Shown in pieces: positions 1 to 12,778 of a DNA stretch of 64,000 bases. Position 1 is the first letter of the stretch. Every line of letters starts with the position of its first letter. The notes under the pieces are model-generated. The model was not told where the DNA came from and ran no database searches. It saw only the letters and a list, made by a program, of their open reading frames with translations. The stretch lies in the NCBI RefSeq assembly GCF_000004075.3, contig NC_026655.2, positions 620,001 through 684,000 on the forward strand, given 5' to 3'. Position numbers and translations under genes: made by a program. This DNA is from Cucumis sativus (taxonomy: Eukaryota > Streptophyta > Magnoliopsida > Cucurbitales > Cucurbitaceae).

Positions 1-842
1 GATGACATATATAGCTTAACCTGCTAAGCTAAATTCTAACCGCGGGTGAACATCAGTCCGTCGACCTCGGTTTAAGAAGTAATTCGTAAATTGATAATTT
101 TTGTTCATTTTGGGTGTCATATATTTAGAACAAGATTATAAAAAAGGTGTGCCAAAGTAGTCTAACTTTAGACTTTAGGACTTGGAACACTGATATCAAT
201 TGAAAGAGAAACAGTTACAGAGAGCCCTCGTGACAGCATAAGCCCATAAATTTCAGCTTATTATATTTATCGAACTCTCTCAAGCTATTGTAGAACTTGA
301 TTAGTGCAACTACAAGCAGAAGCAATCATACAGGAACAGAAATAAATGGCAAACCCTTCAAGCATTAACATCACATTGCTTCCACGATGCAGGGTTTATC
401 ATCAAATATGAAGATGAAGGAAGATATCATTGCCTGATCAGACGATGGCATATTGCAACACAAATGGTGAACAGAAGTACTGGCTCTAAAAGAAAATGGA
501 AGAAGGGCAAGTCTTTTATTGCTCTCATTTCTAAACCCAGAGACTTGCATTTTGTCATTGTGGTACATATATTAGCAAGCAAATAAGTTATGATGAGTAA
601 ATGAACCAATGAATCAAACTGCTCCAAAGAATCACAAGCGTAAAGACCACAGCATGAAGCACCTCTTTTCTGTCAGAACGACTGGCCAACTGGTTTTTTG
701 CAAATTGAAAAGCTATACTTCAACAGTCTGTTGTTGATTTAATCCTTGACGGCTGAACCAAATCTCGTGACTAGAAACAAGTAGGAACACAGTCACAAGA
801 AACTGCACCTGATGTGTAGTTGATATTTGTTCTATGTGATGA
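1..842 (-). other. 3' flank/UTR of the PPR gene; no other gene seen
   Basis: This stretch lies downstream of the minus-strand PPR gene. The first few hundred bases after its stop codon are probably its 3' UTR. I see no convincing coding region, RNA gene or repeat in the rest. The short frames here have no recognisable protein content. Confidence 0.4.
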
Positions 843-2741
843 TTAAGTTTCAATCGGATTGGAGGAAGATTGAGTAGCAGCAGTGGTATTGCTTTCTGCA
901 GATCCAAAGAGCTTACAAACTTCGTTATGCTTTCGAATGTGATGTGGGCATTTGAAGAGCAGATCTTTGGCCTCAGAATATCTGCCTTCATTAAAAAATG
1001 AATTAAAAATATGAAGATAAGCAGACACGGAAGGATATTCTTTTGAACTAAGAACCTTCAGAAAATCATCAGCATCCTGCACAGTACCAAACTTGGAGAT
1101 ATATTGAACAAAGGGTTCTGGAAAAGGTGGGTAATTTTGTTTCTTCATTAAACGAAGGAGGGCAATGGCTTCCTCAAGTTTCCTAACTTCCAAAAGATTT
1201 TTAATTAACTGTTTATATGTTGCCTGCCATGGTCTTACATGAGCCTTATTTGTCAACTCAATCAGCAACTGATATGCACCATTTAACTTTTTCTGGTTAA
1301 GGAAACCACTAATCAACACATCCAAAAGATCAGCATCTGGATCACAGTTCTTCTCTATCATCTTTGCAAAACAAACTAAAGCAATGTCAAGTTCATTGGC
1401 ATTACAATGTCCTTGAATTAAAATAGTCCAAGTCTTGATATCAGGAATACATCCTTGTGCTTCCATCTCATCCAGCACTTTACGGGCTTCCTCAAGTCTC
1501 CTAGCCTTGCAAAGTCCAAATACCAGCTGACTGTATGTAACATTATCAGGTTCATATCCTGCATTTCTCATGGACTTCACGATATTCTCCGCATCATCAA
1601 ACTTTCCTGTGCTTGTCAATGACCTATGGATTCCGTCGTACATAGCTTTGGAGAGACTGTACCCTGTAGCCTCGAATTTCTTGGCCACTCTGTAAACCAA
1701 GCTCAAATCTGGATTGTCACTAGCAGCGATGGTCCGCAAAAGAACGCTGCAATCCTGCAACGAGGGCTTGTATGGCCCATCCATCATAAGCTCATAAAGC
1801 TTGACAGCCTCACCCATCATCTTGCTCTTCTGAAACTGCCTGGAGATCTTTATGTAAGTGTCGATGTCAATTTCATGATTAGCATGCTTCATTTCTTCAA
1901 TCACGCCCCAAAAAGCCTCGATGGAGTCATCCCGTCCAAGAACCCTAGCAATTGCATTGTATGAAACTGTGTTATGATCATAATCCGGCCTACAACCAAC
2001 CCAATGAAAAAAACTCAAGGCTTTCAGTGGAGAATTTCGAAGTTCCTTCAACACTCTAATTACAAAGTTATCTGATAACGCAATACCAAGCTCCTCAAGT
2101 TTTCCAGGAACATCATTACTCCAATCAGATCCTAAAACAATATCAACCACCTTCTGCACCACACTGTCCATGGCATTTTGTTGAAGCATTCGATTGTAAA
2201 AATGAGTCAAACCCGTGGCATCTGCAGCCTTCTTCGACTTTCTCAAAACCCCTAAAATGGTCTTATAAGTTTCCTCATCTAGGTAAAACCCTCGTTCTTT
2301 CATTAACCTTAACGTAATCCAGAACAATTTCATGGACTCATTCTGAACAAAAATCCTAAGCAACATGCTATAAATGGAAGAACTTTGAGTAGACCCATTC
2401 TTCCCAGAAGCCCAGTTGAAGAACTCAGAGGCCTTTTGGGGTTGTTTGTCAAGTCTTTTCAAAACATAGACAACAGTTTCGTGTGTGAGCGTAGGGTTTA
2501 AAGTCTCTAATTCAGTTTCTAACATTTCCGACCAATCGTTGGTCGAAACAAGCTGGAGAAGCGATTGGGGGTTCGACGAGAAAAACAGAACAGGATGGTT
2601 GATTGTGAAATGGGAGACGAGGGACTGATGAGAAACATAAGAAGAAGGTGAAAACCGAGTCACCTGGGGATATCGAGACCGAGTCGAAAAGAAGGAATTT
2701 GCCAATCTGAGGGAAGTGAAAATTGCGTTTCTCCTCGTCAT
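843..2741 (-). CDS. P-class pentatricopeptide repeat protein, BIR6-like (organellar)
   Basis: Intronless 632-residue protein. The start is the ATG complementary to 2739-2741. The first 35 or so residues are rich in Arg, Ser and Phe and lack acidic residues, which suits an organellar targeting peptide. The rest is helical PPR repeats, clearest at roughly residues 390-530, where units such as 'DNVTYSQLVFGLCKARRLEE' and 'PDIKTWTILIQGHCNANELD' occur. There is no E or DYW tail, so this is a P-class protein. Overall it resembles Arabidopsis At3g48250 (BIR6), which is known to act in splicing of mitochondrial nad7 intron 1, and the related At3g02490. Family knowledge predicts sequence-specific RNA binding in mitochondria. 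The specific target is inferred from resemblance only. The gene looks intact. Confidence 0.85.
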   Translation of the reverse strand: MTRRNAIFTSLRLANSFFSTRSRYPQVTRFSPSSYVSHQSLVSHFTINHPVLFFSSNPQSLLQLVSTNDWSEMLETELETLNPTLTHETVVYVLKRLDKQPQKASEFFNWASGKNGSTQSSSIYSMLLRIFVQNESMKLFWITLRLMKERGFYLDEETYKTILGVLRKSKKAADATGLTHFYNRMLQQNAMDSVVQKVVDIVLGSDWSNDVPGKLEELGIALSDNFVIRVLKELRNSPLKALSFFHWVGCRPDYDHNTVSYNAIARVLGRDDSIEAFWGVIEEMKHANHEIDIDTYIKISRQFQKSKMMGEAVKLYELMMDGPYKPSLQDCSVLLRTIAASDNPDLSLVYRVAKKFEATGYSLSKAMYDGIHRSLTSTGKFDDAENIVKSMRNAGYEPDNVTYSQLVFGLCKARRLEEARKVLDEMEAQGCIPDIKTWTILIQGHCNANELDIALVCFAKMIEKNCDPDADLLDVLISGFLNQKKLNGAYQLLIELTNKAHVRPWQATYKQLIKNLLEVRKLEEAIALLRLMKKQNYPPFPEPFVQYISKFGTVQDADDFLKVLSSKEYPSVSAYLHIFNSFFNEGRYSEAKDLLFKCPHHIRKHNEVCKLFGSAESNTTAATQSSSNPIET

Positions 2742-5700
2742 AGTTGCTCCGAGAAACCCCCGTCGGCTGCCTGAATGATCTACGACGGCAGAAGGGCTCC
2801 AAATTGGGGTTTTTCTTAGGGTTTTTCCGAAGGGCTGGGCTACGAGTCTTGATGGGTCGGGTCGGTCGGGTTCATAGATTTTTAATTATTCTATTTTAAT
2901 CTACAGAAATTAGATATTTTGCATCAAAATTCATTAAAATTTCATAAATAAATCAAAACTTCCAAGAATTCAATATAAAAAATCTATTTCAAAAGTAGTT
3001 TTTGAAGCATTCGTAACCTTTTTGTAGTGTGATATTACTTTAAAACATAATTTTTAGTCTTTAAAAAAATATCTGAATATAGACTTCTAAACTTGTTATT
3101 TTGATACGTTCAAAACTACTTTTTTTCTTGTCTTTTTTTTTTAATTAATGGAGAGAATCAAAAGCATGGACCGATGAATAGTTAATGATCAATTATATCT
3201 TACAAACCAATTAGAAGTAGGAAAGTTGATTAAATTGTAAAATTTTCTTTACCTCACATAATGGAAATAAGGCTATCAATAAAGATTACCTGGTTGACCT
3301 ATCTGGTCAAACAAAATCAAGAGAAAATGAGGTTTAACACAATGTATTTTGCCATATTATTTGAGAAGAGATCTCGAGCTATAAAACTCGATGCAAGTAT
3401 ATCCAATATAGAATGATGTTTTTTCAAATAGTTTTGTCCTTGTCATTAACGAGGTATTTGAAAAGTAGTTTGGTTTGATTTTTTGTCATAATGTTCTTGC
3501 GTAGAAAAAAAAATAATATTACACATTATTTGATTAAACAATTAGGAAGTAAGTGCATACAACGAAACAATAGAGATAAAAATTACTACAAATTGTGACT
3601 TTATACATCTAACTCATATAAATGACCGTCATTACCAAAATAAGATAAGGTATGTCATATATATTAGATAAATGATAATTTGATAAGATTTTATAGATGA
3701 ACAAAATATCATAAATTGAAGGCAAAAAAACATATATTAAAGTATCCATATATACCAAAGTGTATGTGTATATGTTACATGTATTCAACTAAAAAGCTTA
3801 ACATTTCTTTAAGTTTGTATATACGTAAAACTTTGTAGTTGGTTTGCACATTTTGTCCAGAATGTCTCTGTCACCATAGCATAGCCATTTTTTCCAGAGA
3901 TCAGATTCCTTTAAGTTGACCTACAGAAGAGATGATCACTTACAGACTAGTGTGATGCATGTCATATCGGACATCCTCCCTCGTCCCTCAAATGCTTAAG
4001 TTGGCGAAAAGTGTTTAGTTGGCTAAACATTTACCATAATATCGTTTACCTCTAAAGTGAAGAAATGAAACTACATGGAGAATATATATCAAATAATTTA
4101 GCATAAATGTAGTTTATCCAACGTTGTAGAGTTTTAACCAAATAAGCTCAACTCTTATATGGGAACGAGCTTGAACCAAGAACTCGAAGTTTTGATTTCT
4201 CTCTTCAAGACGTGTAAATTCAGCTTAGGCATTGCTTTGAACTACCTTCAACGTTTTTGTTTATGACAAAAAGATCGAGTATTGTTTGTCCCAAAGAGTA
4301 TGAGTTTAGATATAAAGAATGTGTCGTTAACTTTATTTGGTTCAAGTAGTTTGTGTTGCCGATTAAAGATTTGTTTTCGAAACTAGACAAACTTCACTCG
4401 TGGTTATAAATGTTGTTACGAAAACGAAAAGAAAACGGGATGCATTAAAAGGAAAAGAGAGTGAGAATGAGTGGAGGTTTTTGGTGGCCGGCAGAGGCAG
4501 AAGATATGTCAGCAGCAAGAGGTTCCCACCACCATTGACTTCAACGCAAAGTTTCCATACTGCCATCAAGATTACGAGACAGCAACTCCTACGTGCCATC
4601 TTCTTATTCGTCTCTTGTCTTAAACTCTGAGCTCATTAGTGGACTTTGATCAACCCCATCACTCACCGTTGGATTTAGGGTTTGATGGCCGGAACACTCT
4701 CTGATCACTAGATGACCATTCTCATCATAAACCCTAGATTTTGGAGGAGACAACAAAAGAAAAAGAAATCCTAATCGAAAAACTCAACCCCCTTTTTCTT
4801 ATTTCTTTGAATCAATTTTAATAATTAAAAAGGAATCTCTTTTGATCATTATGATTAAAAGAAAGCTACATAATAAATTTAATCAACTGTTCCTCATATC
4901 ATAATTAAGAATCCAAAAACCCAACATTGATTTTGTAATTATGATTTCCCACAAAGGCTTATATATATATAGACTCTATTTTAGTAATAATCAATAACCC
5001 ATTATTGGTATATTATATATGTTACACCCTCTTCATTTATCCTCTCTAATATGTAAAACCTCTATCTAGGAGTTGAAAGATCAATCCTCCTTCCTTAATT
5101 CCTACCTAAAACATAGATCTTTTCTTCTTTTTGGTATAGGAACCAAATGTTGATATTGTTTATTGTGTTGTGAAAAAAATTCACTAACTTGATAAAAAAA
5201 AATTTGAGCAAATAATAATCCTAAATCGCATATATTCTAACGTCTAAACTCAAGAATGTATGAGAAAGTAATGTAATCAATAAAAAATACTTGCAAAACA
5301 TAGAAATGAGAGATCGATTGTTTTTAAATTGATTGGATTAGTTCTTGAAATTTACTACGAACAATTAAATTATATTTCTTTTTCTTTTTCAATTGTTATA
5401 TTAGTGTTTCGAACGTATATATATGGCTAAATAAAACAAAATTTATAAAAGATAAAGAGGCCAAATTTTGTTGAAAGAAAAAAGCGTGGAAGAACAGCAA
5501 AGAAGCAAATTGATAAGAACCGACAAAAAGAGAAAGGGGGAAAAAGAAAGGGAAGAAAATGAACATCCCTTAACTTCAAAGTTGAATTTTTGTATAGATT
5601 AATTAGATCAAATAAATAAAGAAGGAAGATTTTCAAATTTATGAAAAATCAACAAAATATATCAAAATTGATAAGACTTTTACAATGAAATTTCACTGTA

Positions 5701-5950
5701 TTTTGAAAATATATATTGCCAATTTTTCAACAAAAGAAAAGGGAAGTAATTTAATTTGGTTATGGTTTTAGGAGACTTATAGCCCCCACCTTTAGGACAC
5801 CACCATTATCCCTTTGCCCTCAAAACATCAATCTTTTTATGCTATCATTTGAAGAAATGTGCCCTAAAACCCCACTACCAAATTAAAGTCAATCCCAACA
5901 TATCCCCAAATAAATATATTGCATGCGGGAATAATAATAATATATATATT
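2742..5950. other. AT-rich spacer; no gene recognised
   Basis: Promoter side of the PPR gene followed by about 3 kb of AT-rich DNA. The frames at 4363-4630 overlap on both strands and resemble no family, so I treat them as chance. Pyrimidine-rich and poly(A) tracts are common. I see no tRNA-like structure and no clear terminal repeats. Confidence 0.4.
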
Positions 5951-5963
5951 ATCTTTTCACTAC

Positions 5964-5975
5964 TATATATATATA
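5964..5975 (+). promoter_or_regulatory. Probable TATA box of the small 6.0-6.3 kb transcription unit
   Basis: A TATATATATATA stretch lies about 70 bases upstream of the 41-codon ORF and about 220 bases upstream of the miR166 mimic site. A start site near 5995-6005 would be expected. TA repeats are common in this AT-rich DNA, so this is suggestive only. Confidence 0.4.
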
Positions 5976-6034
5976 CACACACACATACATATTATATTCA
6001 CTGTCATTAAAACACCATTGATTAAGCTAGCTAT

Positions 6035-6160
6035 ATGGATATGGAGGCTGATATGGCTTCTTCTTCTTCTTCTTCTTCTTCATGTTGTTGGGATTCTGAT
6101 GAGATAGTGGGAAGACGAAGCTTAAAACGACTGCGTTTGAAGAATGATTTGCTGTTGTAG
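6035..6160 (+). CDS. Small ORF, 41 aa, in the miR166-mimic transcript
   Basis: ATG at 6035, TAG at 6158-6160. The peptide begins MDMEADMA, continues with eight serines encoded by a TCT run, then CCWDSDEIVGRR and a basic/leucine-rich tail, SLKRLRLKNDLLL. I do not recognise a family. It lacks the conserved features of DVL/ROT4 peptides and of LITTLE ZIPPER proteins. The contrast between a simple-repeat serine run and a non-repetitive, charged C-terminal half suggests that the latter half may be under selection. The alternative is a chance ORF in a non-coding mimic RNA. It ends 26 bases before the mimic site. Confidence 0.35.
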   Translation: MDMEADMASSSSSSSSCCWDSDEIVGRRSLKRLRLKNDLLL

Positions 6161-6186
6161 CTCATCCATCCCATCTCTAGGCAAAG

Positions 6187-6210
6187 GGGGAATCAAGCTC
6201 TCTGGTCCGA
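6187..6210 (+). promoter_or_regulatory. miR166 endogenous target-mimic site (three-base central bulge)
   Basis: The site reads GGGGAATCAAGC (6187-6198), then TCT (6199-6201), then CTGGTCCGA (6202-6210). Without the TCT it is complementary to the conserved miR166 sequence at 20 of 21 positions. Positions 1-9 of the miRNA pair perfectly, the three-base bulge falls between positions 9 and 10, and positions 10-21 pair except for a C opposite C at position 14. That is the structure of an endogenous target mimic: seed intact, cleavage site disrupted. The bulge position is unique, since no other three-base removal restores the pairing. The miR166 sequence is from memory of the conserved family. Confidence 0.65.
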
Positions 6211-6299
6211 CTATATATAATTATATGATCTATATATTATATTATCCACTCTTCTTCTTCTTCTTCTTCTTTTCTTTTCGTTTTATGTCCCAAACTCAT

Positions 6300-6305
6300 A
6301 ATAAA
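6300..6305 (+). terminator. AATAAA polyadenylation signal of the mimic transcript
   Basis: A canonical AATAAA lies 90 bases after the mimic site and is preceded by a TTC/TTTTC-rich stretch. It is a plausible 3' end for the short RNA. Confidence 0.4.
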
Positions 6306-6330
6306 ATTTTAGACTAATGTTCTTGTTCTT

Positions 6331-7191
6331 GCTAATGTATTCTCCCTTTTTATTTTAAATATATTTTGCCTTGGTTTCTGATCCCTAAGGGAGCTGATTT
6401 ACATTATTATTATTATTAGATGTTGCATTATAACTTGATTTCATGGGTTGATTAAGAATTTGGATCTAGTTCTAATCGCTAGAAGTATTGAATACTAGAG
6501 TATTATTATTATTCTAGTAGTATATATTATAGATTTAGTTTACTAATTATTCCCCAGGTAGTTCGATTCTTGGATTCTTGGCGTATGCATTATTAACTTA
6601 CAATTTTGTAAAATATGAGAGGATAAGAGAATAAGCATTTTGTAAACCAACTAAGATTGTGTCGATTGTATAAACAAATATAAGCGATATCTTAAAACTT
6701 GTATAAGAAAAAGAAGATTTGATCGATCAATAACACACAAACGAATATATAACCTCAAGAAAAAAAATCGGTATAAAAAAGACGACCTTGTGTTAGGAAA
6801 TATGGAGGAAGGAGAGATGGGTGGAAATTTCAAAGACAAGATCCAAAATTTGTGATTGAGAAATTAAACTGTGTGGCCTTTTTTCCTTTCTTTCTTGACT
6901 TAGGGTTTAGGGTTAGGTATAGGGCAGAGAGAAGACATTGTTGAATATGATGATATATTGAGATTGAAGTTTATTATTATTGTCAATTAGGTCTGAATGC
7001 ATTGAAAGTGAGGGATGTGACATTGTGAACATATCACACACACACACTCTCTTTATAAATTTCTTTTTTACTATTATTGTTTCTTTTAATATAGTTGACT
7101 ATGTAATTTATTTGTGGTGTGTATGTGTTTTGATTCATGATGGGTTTCTCTTTGGATTCCTAGTAAATAACTTATTGTTATTATGACATGC
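6331..7191. other. AT-rich spacer
   Basis: Between the mimic unit and the Pack-MULE. It contains TTA/ATT simple repeats near 6400-6520, a duplicated 'AGGGTTTAGGGTTAGG' telomere-like motif near 6901-6917, and a short (CA)n tract near 7037-7046. No gene was recognised. Confidence 0.35.
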
Positions 7192-7202
7192 AAGAAAAAA
7201 AT
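7192..7202. repeat. Left target-site duplication of the Pack-MULE
   Basis: AAGAAAAAAAT, matching AAGAAAAAT at 8633-8641 apart from two extra A in the homopolymer. Nine bases is the normal Mutator duplication length. Confidence 0.6.
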
Positions 7203-8632
7203 GAGAAATTGACAAAAATGGGGTAGATAAAGATTTTTAGGATTGATGGTAAAAAAGGTTGACATTTATGACAAATTAGAACTGAAATGACTCAAATACC
7301 CTCATTTAATTTCCTCCTTCCTCTTTTCTTTTTCCTTCAACTTTTGGTGCCTCCGGTGAACGTTTCTTCTCTTCCATCCATTTCTTCTCCACGACTCTCC
7401 ACTATTAATCCTCTAGGCTATCTCATACACATCTCGCACTTGTCTCATACACATCTTGCACATTTCAAAACTTTTACTATTAGTTTCAAAATCAAATTGT
7501 TACCCCTCCTATCTCGTACACATCTCGAACCTATCTAGTAAGGGTTGGAATAATACATTAAAGATAATGAAAGAACAAAATTCTTTTCAATTACATCCTC
7601 TATATCACAAATGATCAACTTCAAGAATACAATTAAATGGTTCGGCATAAGTTCAAAGAAATACAAAACAGTAACTCCAATTTCTATAATGCCTACCCTA
7701 AAGCTAATTACACCATGTGTGTCCATATCTTTTGCTTTTAATAAGGCATCAAGCGTTGTTTGATACTTGCTTTCCACTAGTTGTCCAATCTTCAACTAGA
7801 AGAGCCAAATTTCCTACCTGGTATATATAAGTAACATATAAGCAATAAAAATGAGGAAAAAAATCTATGGAGAAATCCGATAAATTTTGAGCTCAAAACA
7901 AATATGAAAATCTAAATCATTCACATTCTTACAAAGACTCACCATCCGCCTGATAATCTAGCCATTGCTGATAATCCTTCTTTCCAAACACTGCAACATC
8001 GAGTTCCACAATATTGAACAACTTAGTAACAACAGTAGCAACCCCTCTAAAGAACACAAGTCTACTTCTCCCACACATGTCCTCCAAACGCTTAACCCTC
8101 ACTGATGTCTCATCCTCTGAACCGGATTCCTCCAAGCAAGAAACATGGACATTCTAGGACAATCCATAGCTAATTTAACTCCATAGTCGTAGAGATTGTG
8201 AGGATGAAAAACAACATCAACTCCATAGCTGATTTAACTCCATACACCTCCTCGCCGGAATCCAATTTTCGTAGCAAGATCACGAGTCCCAAGTCATGTT
8301 CCACAATGAAATCACCGGAACTACCATTGTTTTTGTAGTTTTGTGAATGAAAAATGGGAAAGGAAGAAAAAGGAAATCAAAGGTTTTGTGAAAATGAAGA
8401 AAAACGGAATACGCATAGGGAGAGATGAGAGAAAAATGAAATATTATTTTTGGAAGTGAGAAAATGGAGGAAGAAGGAGAAGGAATTCCATAAATTGCTT
8501 TTTAGGTTTTTTTTATAACTAAAGGGTAATATAGACTTTTCCTAGTTAATTTGTCCTAAATGTCATCTTTTTTAAAATCCATCCTAAAACTCTTTAAACC
8601 CTTAAAAATTATCCTATTTTTGTTAATTTCCC
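7203..8632. mobile_element. Pack-MULE (non-autonomous Mutator-like element) carrying a panC fragment
   Basis: About 1.43 kb, with long diverged terminal inverted repeats of roughly 110 bases. The left end starts GAGAAATTGACAAAAAT and the reverse complement of the right end starts GGGAAATTAACAAAAAT. Further in, both share blocks such as TTTTAGGAT, AAAAAAG, GACATTT and GACAAATTA in the same order. The flanks show a 9-bp duplication (8633-8641) with a slipped copy at 7192-7202. No transposase is present. The interior holds part of a host gene, pantothenate synthetase, with the remains of an exon-intron boundary. Together these are the hallmarks of a Pack-MULE that captured genomic DNA. The divergence between the ends suggests it is not recent. 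Confidence 0.75.
7929..8221 (-). pseudogene. Captured fragment of pantothenate synthetase (panC)
   Basis: Reading the minus strand, the stretch at about 8220-8177 encodes DVVFHPHNLYDYG. After an interruption, 8135-7940 encodes [20 protein letters not shown], then a block ending in [17 protein letters not shown], then [13 protein letters not shown]. These are the central pantoate/ATP-binding regions of plant pantoate-beta-alanine ligase, the last step of vitamin B5 synthesis. The N-terminal HIGH-like part and the whole C-terminal half are missing. The homology stops near 7945 at GGTGAGT, which looks like the original splice donor, so genomic DNA rather than cDNA was captured. A 24-base segment (8163-8186) recurs at 8222-8245. 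The fragment cannot give a working enzyme. Confidence 0.75.
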
Positions 8633-8641
8633 AAGAAAAAT
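8633..8641. repeat. Right target-site duplication of the Pack-MULE
   Basis: AAGAAAAAT, a 9-bp direct repeat of the left flank (with two extra A there), immediately after the right terminal inverted repeat. Confidence 0.6.
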
Positions 8642-11329
8642 GTATAATCGATGTATATTTATCATTTTTAAGATATACATACATATACATGGAATATGAT
8701 TGGAATGAACAGAGACAAATTTCCAAAACATCAAGTGCGAGAGGTCGACACTTAAATATTTCGATTAGGTTATTGAGATATACATAGCACATTTATATCA
8801 TACCTTAAATTTAAAAAAAAAAAAAAAAAAACGATGCCGATAAAAATCAGAATATATAAGGAGAGAGTGTAGAAGATCTCACGGTTCAATTAAGTATAAC
8901 AAAAAGTGGAGAGACTAGAGAAAAGTCTTCTAATTAAGAAAAATATGTAATAGTTGCATTATAATTTCAACGAACAATTGATTTTTCTTTTTTGGTTATA
9001 ATTAGTCTCTTTAATTATGTAAAAAAATTTACCTAGAGTAAACGTTGTATACTTATATGTTTTAAAGTCACAATAAACGACACATACCCTTCTCTTTAAT
9101 TAATATGAAGGTATTCGAGTTAATTAGCTAAATAATTACACATTTTAGTGAAATGGTTTGATTTAAAACATGCAAGAAGTCTCACTTCTGTTTAGAAATT
9201 ACAAGTGTTAAAACTTTTAAACCTAAGATTTAGAGAGATGCTATATGTAAACCATTTAACTCCATTCGTGGACGTAACTAATCAATAGATTACTGGTTAA
9301 TACCATGTAAATTTGTACGTACACTGTTTTTACCGTTTATACTTTAGGAGGACGTGTGGAATGACTTCAAATATATATATATTTTTTTTAATTTTCAAAA
9401 GAGGAAAAACGTGGTAGGATTGGTTAGAAAGAGAGGAAAAGAAAAGAGGAAATTAAAAAAGGTAAGAAAAAGAAGAGAGAATATGGGTGTGGAAAAGGAG
9501 GGATGATGGAAAGGGCAGAAAGGGGTGGAAATGAAAGTGGGAATGAGACTATGACTTTAGCTGCCTCTCCCAATCTGCTTCCTCTCTTAAAAGCCTCACC
9601 CTTTTCTTTTCTTTTCTTTTTCTTTTTCTTTTTCTTTCTTTTTTTTAATTATATATTATCATTTTTCTTAGTTTATTTATTACTCCACATTCTCAACTTT
9701 TGCTCTCTTTTCATTTTCAACCTTTCTCCAAATAAACTTTATTCAATGTCAATATTTTCATCAACATTTTCACGCTTCTATAGAGTCGACACTAACATCA
9801 ACTAGAGGAGTCAATATATGTATATTAGAATATATCTTCATTTATAAATACTCACATATATACTTATTTGTAGATAAATATCTACTTTTTTTTTCCCTAG
9901 ATTAAAGGGATGTCATATTTATATATACACTCAAGATTTTGGACATAGATGAGTAAGGGGTCATTTAGAACCCTATCTATGTAGTTATCCCCTAAAACAA
10001 AAGTCCAAAAGAGAATTGAGGCCCATTACGCTACCTAGCCCATCTCTACATCAAAAACACGTTTAAAATTTCAAAAGTTTTAAAAAATGTCTAATTTTCA
10101 AAAAAGATTAAAAGATATATTTACCATTAGTAAGAGTTTTAAGAGTAAGTTGAGGACATTTTTTGTAGTTTAGTCTAGTGTTAGAGGTATTAAGTTGGTT
10201 ATTCCGGGATGTGATTATTATAGTCTATTACTTATATAATTTATATGCTACAATAATCTTTATTAAAAGTGTAGACTACTTAATCTAGGTTATAGTAGTA
10301 TGCATTTAGAGTAATGCAGAGACTATTTTAGTATGCATTCTAGAAATATTAGAATATTAGAATTCAAAACATTGCATACAACCTTTTGAAGCAATTTATC
10401 AAGCAAGAAGCTGCCACCAACCTAAAGCTATTGTGCAATGCCACTAAACATCTTAAACATCATTTCCAAATCAACCTAGGGGTAGCTTAACTAGTTAAGT
10501 AAAACGTCCTCGACAAAGAGGTCGGCGGTTAAAAGACGAAAAAATCATATCCATGGATTATAGGATCTTCAGAAACTCCATGTGAACATCTGGACTTGCA
10601 ATAGGCAACAAAACTTGCTGGTGTAATTCAGTGAACTCAAGCATAGATAGCTTGTGGAAATAGAGGCATCAAAACAAGCCCAACAATGATGGTTTCCACA
10701 AACCAGTGCCTTAAATAAATAATCCTCAAGACAGTATATTGATTGATATTAGTTTAACAAATTCAACAGTATTTAAAAAGAACAAGAATTTCCAAATGAT
10801 TGATGTAGCTCCCAATCTTATGAGGATGCTAATGACAAGCTGCAAATGAAGCAATGTCTGCAAGCTTGTCTTGAAGCCATGTGAATGCAATACAATAACT
10901 ATGGAAACAACATATAATTTTGGTATACACAGTCAAGTAGACAGGCATAAGATGTTGATTCACATTGTCCCAATCGGACACGAAAAGAAAGATAACATCT
11001 CAAACTAGAATATTGATTAGTGATTTGAAATCATATTGGTGAAAACTTGCAGACTCTTCATTGAAAAACTCAACGAAACTAACCAGAAGCATAAGAGGGG
11101 AAAAAGAGTATCTGCAAATATACCATCATAAAAACATTATCCAGCCACGCTGGATGTGTTCGAGCCAACCAACGAGAGAACAAAACTAAAAATATATGAC
11201 ATTGAATCCAGAAAGTTTCACAAAATGAAGAAAAGAAATCACTGATGTTGATTCAAATTTAGCCTAACTTAAAAAGGAGTAAAGAACATTTCAACTGGTT
11301 TCCACAATTAAGTTGTGTCTTCCTATCAC
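8642..11329. other. Spacer and 3' flank of EF-Tu
   Basis: AT-rich DNA with a poly(A) run at 8812-8831 and TTTTC simple repeats at 9600-9640. The segment 10140-10330 contains 'GATTATTATAGTCTATTAC'-type sequence. Similar diverged sequence recurs near 48.4 and 55.06 kb, perhaps an old MITE. A SINE-like piece lies at 10483-10538. The last 300 to 600 bases are probably the 3' UTR of EF-Tu. No further gene was recognised. Confidence 0.35.
10483..10538 (+). mobile_element. Possible tRNA-derived SINE fragment
   Basis: TAGCTTAACTAG (10483-10494) resembles a pol III A box, and GGTTAAAAGAC (10528-10538) a decayed B box. The spacing is typical of a tRNA-derived promoter, with a 'CGAC..AGAGGTCGGCGG' arm-like stretch between them. 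I could not define the ends, tail or target-site duplication. Confidence 0.35.
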
Positions 11330-12778
11330 TCACTCGATAATTGATTGAATCACACCAGCACCAACAGTCTTTCCACCTTCTCTGATAGCAAACCTCATTC
11401 CTTGTTCACAAGCCACAGGCATAATCAGTTCCACAACCATTTTCACTCGGTCTCCTGGCATAACCATTTTCGACTCCTCGTCCTTGTCGTTCATAATTGA
11501 AGACACCTTGCCAGTGACATCAGTCGTCCTCATATAGAATTGCGGTCTGTAACCAGCAAAAAAGGGTGAATGTCTACCACCCTCTTCCTTCTTCAACACA
11601 TACACAACTGCACTAAACTTGGTATGTGGGGTGATAGTGCCAGGCTTGGCTAAGACCATCCCTCTTTGGATATCAGCCTTCTGAACACCTCGAAGCAACA
11701 ACCCAACATTATCCCCAGCCAAAGCCTCATCAAGAATCTTTTGAAACATTTCCACCCCTGTTACAGTTGTGTTTCTAGTTTCCCTCAATCCCACAATATC
11801 CACTGTCTCTCCCACTCTAACGGTTCCTCTTTCAACACGCCCTGTAGCGACAGTACCACGACCCGTAATAGAGAACACATCTTCAACAGCAAGCAAAAAC
11901 GGAAGATCTGTTTGTCTTTCAGGTATTGGTATATAACTATCAACAGCATCCATTAGTTCAAAAATTTTATCCACCCATTCATTTTCACCTCTAGCTATGT
12001 TATTGTTAGCCATTAAAGCTTCCAAAGCTAACAAAGCAGAACCAGCAATAATTGGAACATCATCACCTGGGAATTCGTAAGAAGAAAGCAACTCACGCAT
12101 CTCCAACTCCACAAGCTCCAAAAGCTCCTCATCATCAACCTGATCCTTCTTGTTCAAAAACACCACCATATTAGGAACACCCACTTGCTTAGCCAACAGA
12201 ATATGCTCCTTCGTCTGTGGCATTGGACCATCAGCACCAGAAACAACCAAAATCGCTCCATCCATTTGAGCAGCACCAGTAATCATATTCTTCACATAAT
12301 CAGCATGTCCAGGACAGTCAACATGAGCATAATGTCGATTCTCAGTCTCGTACTCAACAGTAGCTGTATTAATCGTAATACCACGAGCTCGTTCTTCTGG
12401 GGCAGCGTCAATCTCATCGTATTTCTTTGGGGCTTTGCTTAAAGCCATGGTTAAAGCAGCAGTGAGAGTGGTTTTACCATGGTCAACATGGCCAATTGTC
12501 CCAATATTGACATGGGGTTTCTTCCTCTCAAATTTCCCACGAGCGGCACGAATTGTTAAGGAACGAGGACGGCTTACAGAAGGGGAAGAGAAGGAGAGAG
12601 GACGAATTGAAGAAGAGTTCAAGAAAGAGGAAGAAAGGTTGGAAGAGGGTTTGGAGAAAAGGGTAGAAGAAAGGGAAGAAGAAGAAGAAGAAGACGAAGG
12701 AGAAGAAGAAGACGAAGAAGGGTGAGGGAAAACAAGCTTAGAAGAAGTGGAAACGGAAGCTAAGGAAATGGCCGCCAT
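11330..12778 (-). CDS. TUFA: Elongation factor Tu, chloroplastic (nuclear-encoded tufA)
   Basis: Intronless 482-residue protein. Residues 1 to about 78 form a serine-rich transit peptide. The mature EF-Tu begins around '[13 protein letters not shown]'. GTPase motifs are intact: GHVDHGKT at 96-103, the switch-I RGITIN at 132-137, DCPGH at 154-158 and NKKD at 209-212. Domains II and III follow and the end '[10 protein letters not shown]' is normal. It delivers aminoacyl-tRNA to the chloroplast ribosome at the cost of GTP. In land plants the gene has moved from plastid to nucleus, so the bacterial-type protein with a leader peptide is expected. The leader is encoded by a long TCT/TTC run (about 12620-12720), which produces spurious open frames on the opposite strand. 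Confidence 0.97.

Follow-up and report, generated by a model that had tools for sequence, protein, structure and literature searches.

miR166 sets the dose of the HD-ZIP III factors that govern leaf polarity, vasculature and meristems. The classical mimic IPS1 is bulged between miRNA positions 10 and 11, and perfect pairing at miRNA positions 2-8 belongs to the rules by which endogenous target mimics (eTMs) are recognised. Further rules, printed in a melon leaf study, place the bulge at positions 9-12, set its length at exactly 3 nt and allow at most three mismatches (PMC7003419). That mimics of miR166 itself have been proposed in other plants, as an earlier note on the locus described here stated, is borne out by the literature passages covered, which name ath-eTM166-1, osa-eTM166-2, slylnc0195 and csi-eTM166. 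According to passages citing Wu et al. 2013, overexpression of ath-eTM166-1 increased the miR166 targets and changed leaf shape. Reviews, in the excerpts covered, describe ath-eTM166-1 and osa-eTM166-2 as functional, one of them naming osa-eTM166-2. In tomato, slylnc0195 was predicted by psMimic to be a miR166 mimic, and the passages covered report that miR166 targets were raised in a transient assay (PMC4683531). The lncRNA csi-eTM166 from Citrus sinensis is described, in the sections covered, as a miR166 mimic belonging to a network that also includes a precursor and a target lncRNA (PMC8861278, PMC8215657).

Here, we describe a candidate miR166 mimic in cucumber (Cucumis sativus). It lies in a stretch of 64,000 nucleotides, C1:620001-684000, which is referred to as the window; positions given without a contig are those of the window.

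Results

Positions 6187-6210 on the plus strand of the window read GGGGAATCAAGC-TCT-CTGGTCCGA; re-reading confirmed exactly the coordinates and the sequence given in the earlier note. When this site is aligned with mature miR166 (UCGGACCAGGCUUCAUUCCCC), whose exact complement was found at six loci of the genome, 20 of 21 positions are complementary. The 5′ arm (6187..6198, +) pairs with miRNA positions 21-10, all of which are matched except position 14, where C faces C (base 6194). The 3′ arm (6202..6210, +) pairs perfectly with positions 9-1, which include the seed. Between miRNA positions 9 and 10 the site contains three extra bases, the TCT bulge (6199..6201, +), which remain unpaired and adjoin the slicing position. 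The binding geometry computed with RNAduplex comprises 20 pairs at −31.2 kcal/mol, equivalent to 0.71 of a perfect duplex. It reproduces the picture drawn before, namely pairing at 20 of 21 positions with a bulge between positions 9 and 10, and the perfect seed and the sole mismatch at position 14 were likewise read correctly, positions 1-9 being paired throughout and C facing C at position 14. Among five bulge placements scanned at the site, 9/10 was the best with one mismatch, and shifting the register to 10/11 would require a G:U pair at position 10. Of the IPS1-type design that had been claimed, the 3-nt bulge at the slicing site thus holds, whereas the register does not, being 9/10 instead of the 10/11 of IPS1. 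In a guessed transcript, the accessibility of the site was average, neither higher nor lower.

The window site is beyond chance. Scanning the window with 1000 shuffled 21-mers carrying the same gap gave a best match of four mismatches, reached by one pattern, compared with one mismatch for the real pattern; the other shuffled patterns reached 5 (36 patterns), 6 (286), 7 (617) or 8 mismatches (60). On the minus strand of the window, nothing below seven mismatches was found with five bulge placements. The genome search covered 226.6 Mb in 88 contigs with a fixed 3-nt gap and at most three mismatches. Its counts are lower bounds, and the expected numbers assume independent bases, the low figure being derived from the base composition of the window and the high figure from equal base frequencies. 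One site had at most one mismatch (0.0004-0.007 expected), three sites had at most two (0.017-0.20 expected) and five had at most three (0.41-3.9 expected). With the reversed pattern, the same search of the genome (3-nt gap at 9/10, at most three mismatches) gave 0 sites. The two sites with two mismatches also stand out, less strongly than the window site, and sites with three mismatches do not stand out from expectation.

Altered patterns were searched in the same genome. A 2-nt gap yielded three sites (reversed control, 1), the best of which, with two mismatches, is apparently a segment of a LINE reverse transcriptase. A 4-nt gap yielded 0 sites (reversed control, 1). With the bulge at 10/11, the same three loci were recovered at two mismatches each, together with the LINE-like one at three (control, 2). 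A bulge at 14/15, used as a control, found two of these loci, L017 at two mismatches and L016 at three, and one new site at three. Because this control finds sites and its reversed counterpart finds 2, matches with three mismatches are uninformative. Three of them were set aside: L018 (duplex ratio 0.59), L019 (low pairing, duplex ratio 0.56) and the LINE-like L020 from the 10/11 search (duplex ratio 0.64). The other strand of L018 (locus 1501-1524) presumably resembles a small secreted-peptide gene, judging from a frame read by hand as SGPSPSGDGH followed by a stop, and L020, likewise read by hand, is presumably a LINE reverse-transcriptase segment. Prokaryote contigs did not match the exact pattern, a result that is uninformative on plants.

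As a positive control, a pattern for the IPS1/miR399 mimic gave five sites in the genome, four of them at 0-1 mismatch (reversed control, 2). IPS1-like miR399 mimic sites are found at L055-L057 on C3 (about 30.25-30.34 Mb) and at L058 on C6. Three identical copies of the site lie within about 90 kb on C3, and from these copies a local amplification of the phosphate mimic appears likely.

The earlier note had presented the window site as a single locus. This does not hold, as two further bulged miR166 sites are located elsewhere on contig C1. L016 (C1:5192707-5192730, +), which reads GGGGAATCAAGC ATC TTGGTCCGA, has a mismatch at miRNA position 14 and a G:U pair at position 9. L017 (C1:5519404-5519427, +) reads GGGGAATTCAGC ATC CTGGTCCGA and has mismatches at miRNA positions 13 and 14. 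All three sites share the contig, the plus orientation and the mismatch at position 14, none of which was demanded by the search; the ATC bulge common to L016 and L017 was not required either. With a duplex ratio of 0.71 the window site is the strongest, followed by 0.67 and 0.66 for the other two. The bulge position of L017 is ambiguous, as three placements (9/10, 10/11 and 14/15) fit at two mismatches each; despite this ambiguity by mismatch count, the loop is central in the energy model. Comparison of the flanks of the window site with those of L016 and L017 revealed no similarity beyond the sites; the three loci may be of common or of independent origin. About 1.1 kb upstream of L017, on the same strand, are open frames whose translations seem to resemble the end of a PCH2/TRIP13-type ATPase, and further open frames are located between them and L017.

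Precursor-like loci of miR166 and target sites for it both occur in the genome. A match to the miR166 complement with at most three mismatches was found at ten loci, nine of which fold as precursors in which 16-19 of the 21 mature bases are paired to the 5′ arm. The tenth, L025 (C3:34949401-34949421), gave no precursor fold when as many as 250 upstream bases were included, 12 of its 21 bases being paired; its loop may be longer, or the copy may be dead. On the target side, 13 genome matches to the MEKHLA domain (PF08670) were grouped by place into six genes, which, given the make-up of that family, we take to be HD-ZIP III genes. At four of these six places, the two halves of the miR166 site, TGGGATGAAG and CCTGGTCCGGA, flank an intron of 101-634 bases; one of the remaining places has the 3′ half of the miR166 site only and one has neither half. 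After splicing, the HD-ZIP III-type site pairs with miR166 at −37.4 kcal/mol, a ratio of 0.85 versus 0.71 for the mimic. The mimic would therefore need abundance or good placement to compete. An origin of the mimic from an HD-ZIP III site was considered and rejected, as those sites are split by introns and pair differently at the miRNA 3′ end; the mimic seems to follow the miRNA itself.

The mimic site is located between a PPR gene and a ligase fragment, both on the minus strand. Of the 34 ORFs with a length of 35 aa or more that were listed for 1-12000, 11 were submitted to Pfam, and among these 11 only 846-2741 and 7932-8078 gave matches. The former belongs to the PPR gene (ORF 843-2741, minus strand, Pfam PPR). 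The latter is a piece of 39 residues from a pantoate-beta-alanine ligase (7932-8078, minus strand; PF02569, 2.5e-15); the neighbouring ORFs sent had no other Pfam match, and the piece is a gene exon or a fragment. Beyond it lies an ORF (11330-12778, minus strand) that is presumably EF-Tu-like, judging from its translation. ORF 6144-6317, the only one of at least 35 aa that overlaps the site, had no Pfam match. A motif scan revealed a TATA-like run (5964..5974, +), a weak candidate for the promoter of a short transcript and one of 13 such matches in 5200-6700, and an AATAAA (6300..6305, +) about 90 nt past the site, a weak candidate for a polyadenylation signal and one of 6 such matches in the same interval. 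The spacing of the two suits a transcript of ~300 bases, and AT-rich DNA offers many such motifs. P1BS phosphate-type promoter sites were not found in 5200-6700, and an Rfam search of the window returned nothing at gathering score. A transposon copy or duplicated flank was set aside, since 5760-6330 is otherwise single-copy; its seven short matches (about 30-60 bases) fall in simple-repeat parts.

Discussion

The window site is probably an intergenic endogenous target mimic of miR166. Judged by its sequence, it would add a new eTM166 candidate to a known class, accompanied by two loci that are candidate partners. Its TCT bulge at 6199-6201 is 3 nt long and opposite positions 9/10, there is one mismatch outside the bulge, at position 14, and positions 2-8 lie within the perfectly paired stretch 1-9. 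The duplex ratio of 0.71, obtained with RNAduplex, not TAPIR, exceeds the cut-off of 0.6 that was used with TAPIR in two cucumber papers, according to the parts of them covered. This cut-off is unspecific: the LINE-like L020 reaches 0.64. The target-mimic reading of the earlier note is thus retained as a probable one, with agreement with the eTM rules far beyond chance and with MIR166-like precursors and MEKHLA genes bearing ordinary miR166 sites in the same genome.

By analogy with described members of the class, a short, intergenic and probably non-coding RNA carrying the site would be transcribed from the plus strand, roughly from 6000 to 6320. AGO1-bound miR166 would pair with both arms of the site, and slicing would be blocked because a loop of three bases lies opposite positions 9/10. 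The bound miR166 would be held or destabilised and in this way kept off the HD-ZIP III mRNAs, whose levels would rise.

The alternative that survives best, although we regard it as unlikely, is an untranscribed or barely transcribed relic, a site that once, or by rare accident, was complementary to miR166 and has no effect. It would be in accordance with promoter and polyadenylation motifs that are no better than the AT-rich background, and with tables printed in the cucumber lincRNA study and in the melon eTM study, neither of which contains the site. In the part of the melon leaf study covered, 13 eTMs are printed, none of them for miR166 (PMC7003419). In the cucumber lincRNA table of Hao et al. 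2015, as far as covered, a single lincRNA is paired with miR166; the alignment shows an almost complete complement that lacks a central bulge, like L024 and L025 and unlike the window site (PMC4370693). A cucumber fruit study describes 16 eTM lncRNAs and does not mention miR166 in the text covered (PMC9383263). In a cucumber waterlogging study, five eTMs are assigned to novel miRNAs that the sections covered do not name, and csa-novel_miR20 may, according to the same study, be a miR166 sequence; a miR166 mimic among these eTMs, whose alignments are presented in a figure, is possible (PMC8348067). For squash, three eTMs have been described that are directed at two miRNAs, the names of which do not appear in the passages covered (PMC9283782). 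No description of the window site was found in the printed text of the literature covered, and pieces of the three sites, spelled as DNA, as RNA and in reverse, retrieved no plant-RNA paper by title from literature text. A prior prediction of the site in a supplementary table or database is possible. Given the absence from the cucumber and melon reports, the transcript is either rare, filtered out or non-existent. What argues against a relic is the chance of only 0.0004-0.007 per genome for a site with at most one mismatch; moreover, decay would not be expected to leave 20 of 21 pairs intact.

An ordinary miR166 target, whose RNA would be cut or would give rise to secondary siRNAs in spite of the bulge, seems very improbable to us. 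The perfect seed half and the strong pairing of −31.2 kcal/mol would suit such a target, but in IPS1, according to the review passages covered, a 3-nt bulge facing the scissile position prevents cleavage. Equally hard to credit is the mRNA of a short peptide (41 or 35 aa) with the mimic in its 3′ UTR, i.e. a dual-function transcript. An ORF of 41 aa is indeed present at 6035..6160 (+), with an internal in-frame ATGGCT start at 6053 that would give 35 aa and a stop 26 nt before the mimic. However, it matches no Pfam family, a genome search at E <= 10 revealed no second copy, and when 5998-6316 was shuffled 1000 times, 193 of the shuffled sequences contained an ORF of at least its length; it is probably not coding. 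Least plausible is a damaged or antisense MIR166 gene: although the minus strand reads as miR166 with an insertion, no miR166-star-like arm was seen in the minus-strand stretch, no precursor hairpin joining mature and star arms was found at the window site, and 14 of 24 bases are paired to an upstream arm compared with 16-19 of 21 in nine of the ten miR166 loci, a count that alone is a weak hairpin test, with L016 reaching 17/24 and the LINE-like L020 19/24.

It is conceivable, though rather doubtful, that the window site, L016 and L017 form a family of mimics confined to one chromosome, all three of them weakened at position 14 and one also at position 13, and serve as graded decoys that set HD-ZIP III dosage by tissue. 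The strong candidate and its two possible partners are named, deletable sites at which the question of natural decoys can be addressed at native expression level. The miR166-mimic work described elsewhere, in the passages covered, employed overexpression, transient expression or silencing.

Compared with IPS1/At4, the miR399 mimics, the cucumber locus shares a 3-nt bulge at the slicing site, a short intergenic RNA, here a putative one, and short ORFs. IPS1/At4 differ from it in the miRNA, in the 10/11 position of the bulge, in their phosphate-dependent induction and in the P1BS sites of their promoters. Closer in kind, when compared by description only, are ath-eTM166-1 and osa-eTM166-2, which according to the passages covered are non-coding RNAs presenting a miR166 site with a central bulge; they originate from other species, and the window locus is a candidate identified by sequence. 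The tomato slylnc0195 is, in contrast to the window site, a detected and virus-responsive transcript, as stated in the sections covered (PMC4683531). Likewise compared by description, csi-eTM166 is part of a lncRNA network, unlike the window site, and shares with it a mimic site for miR166, a putative one in the window.
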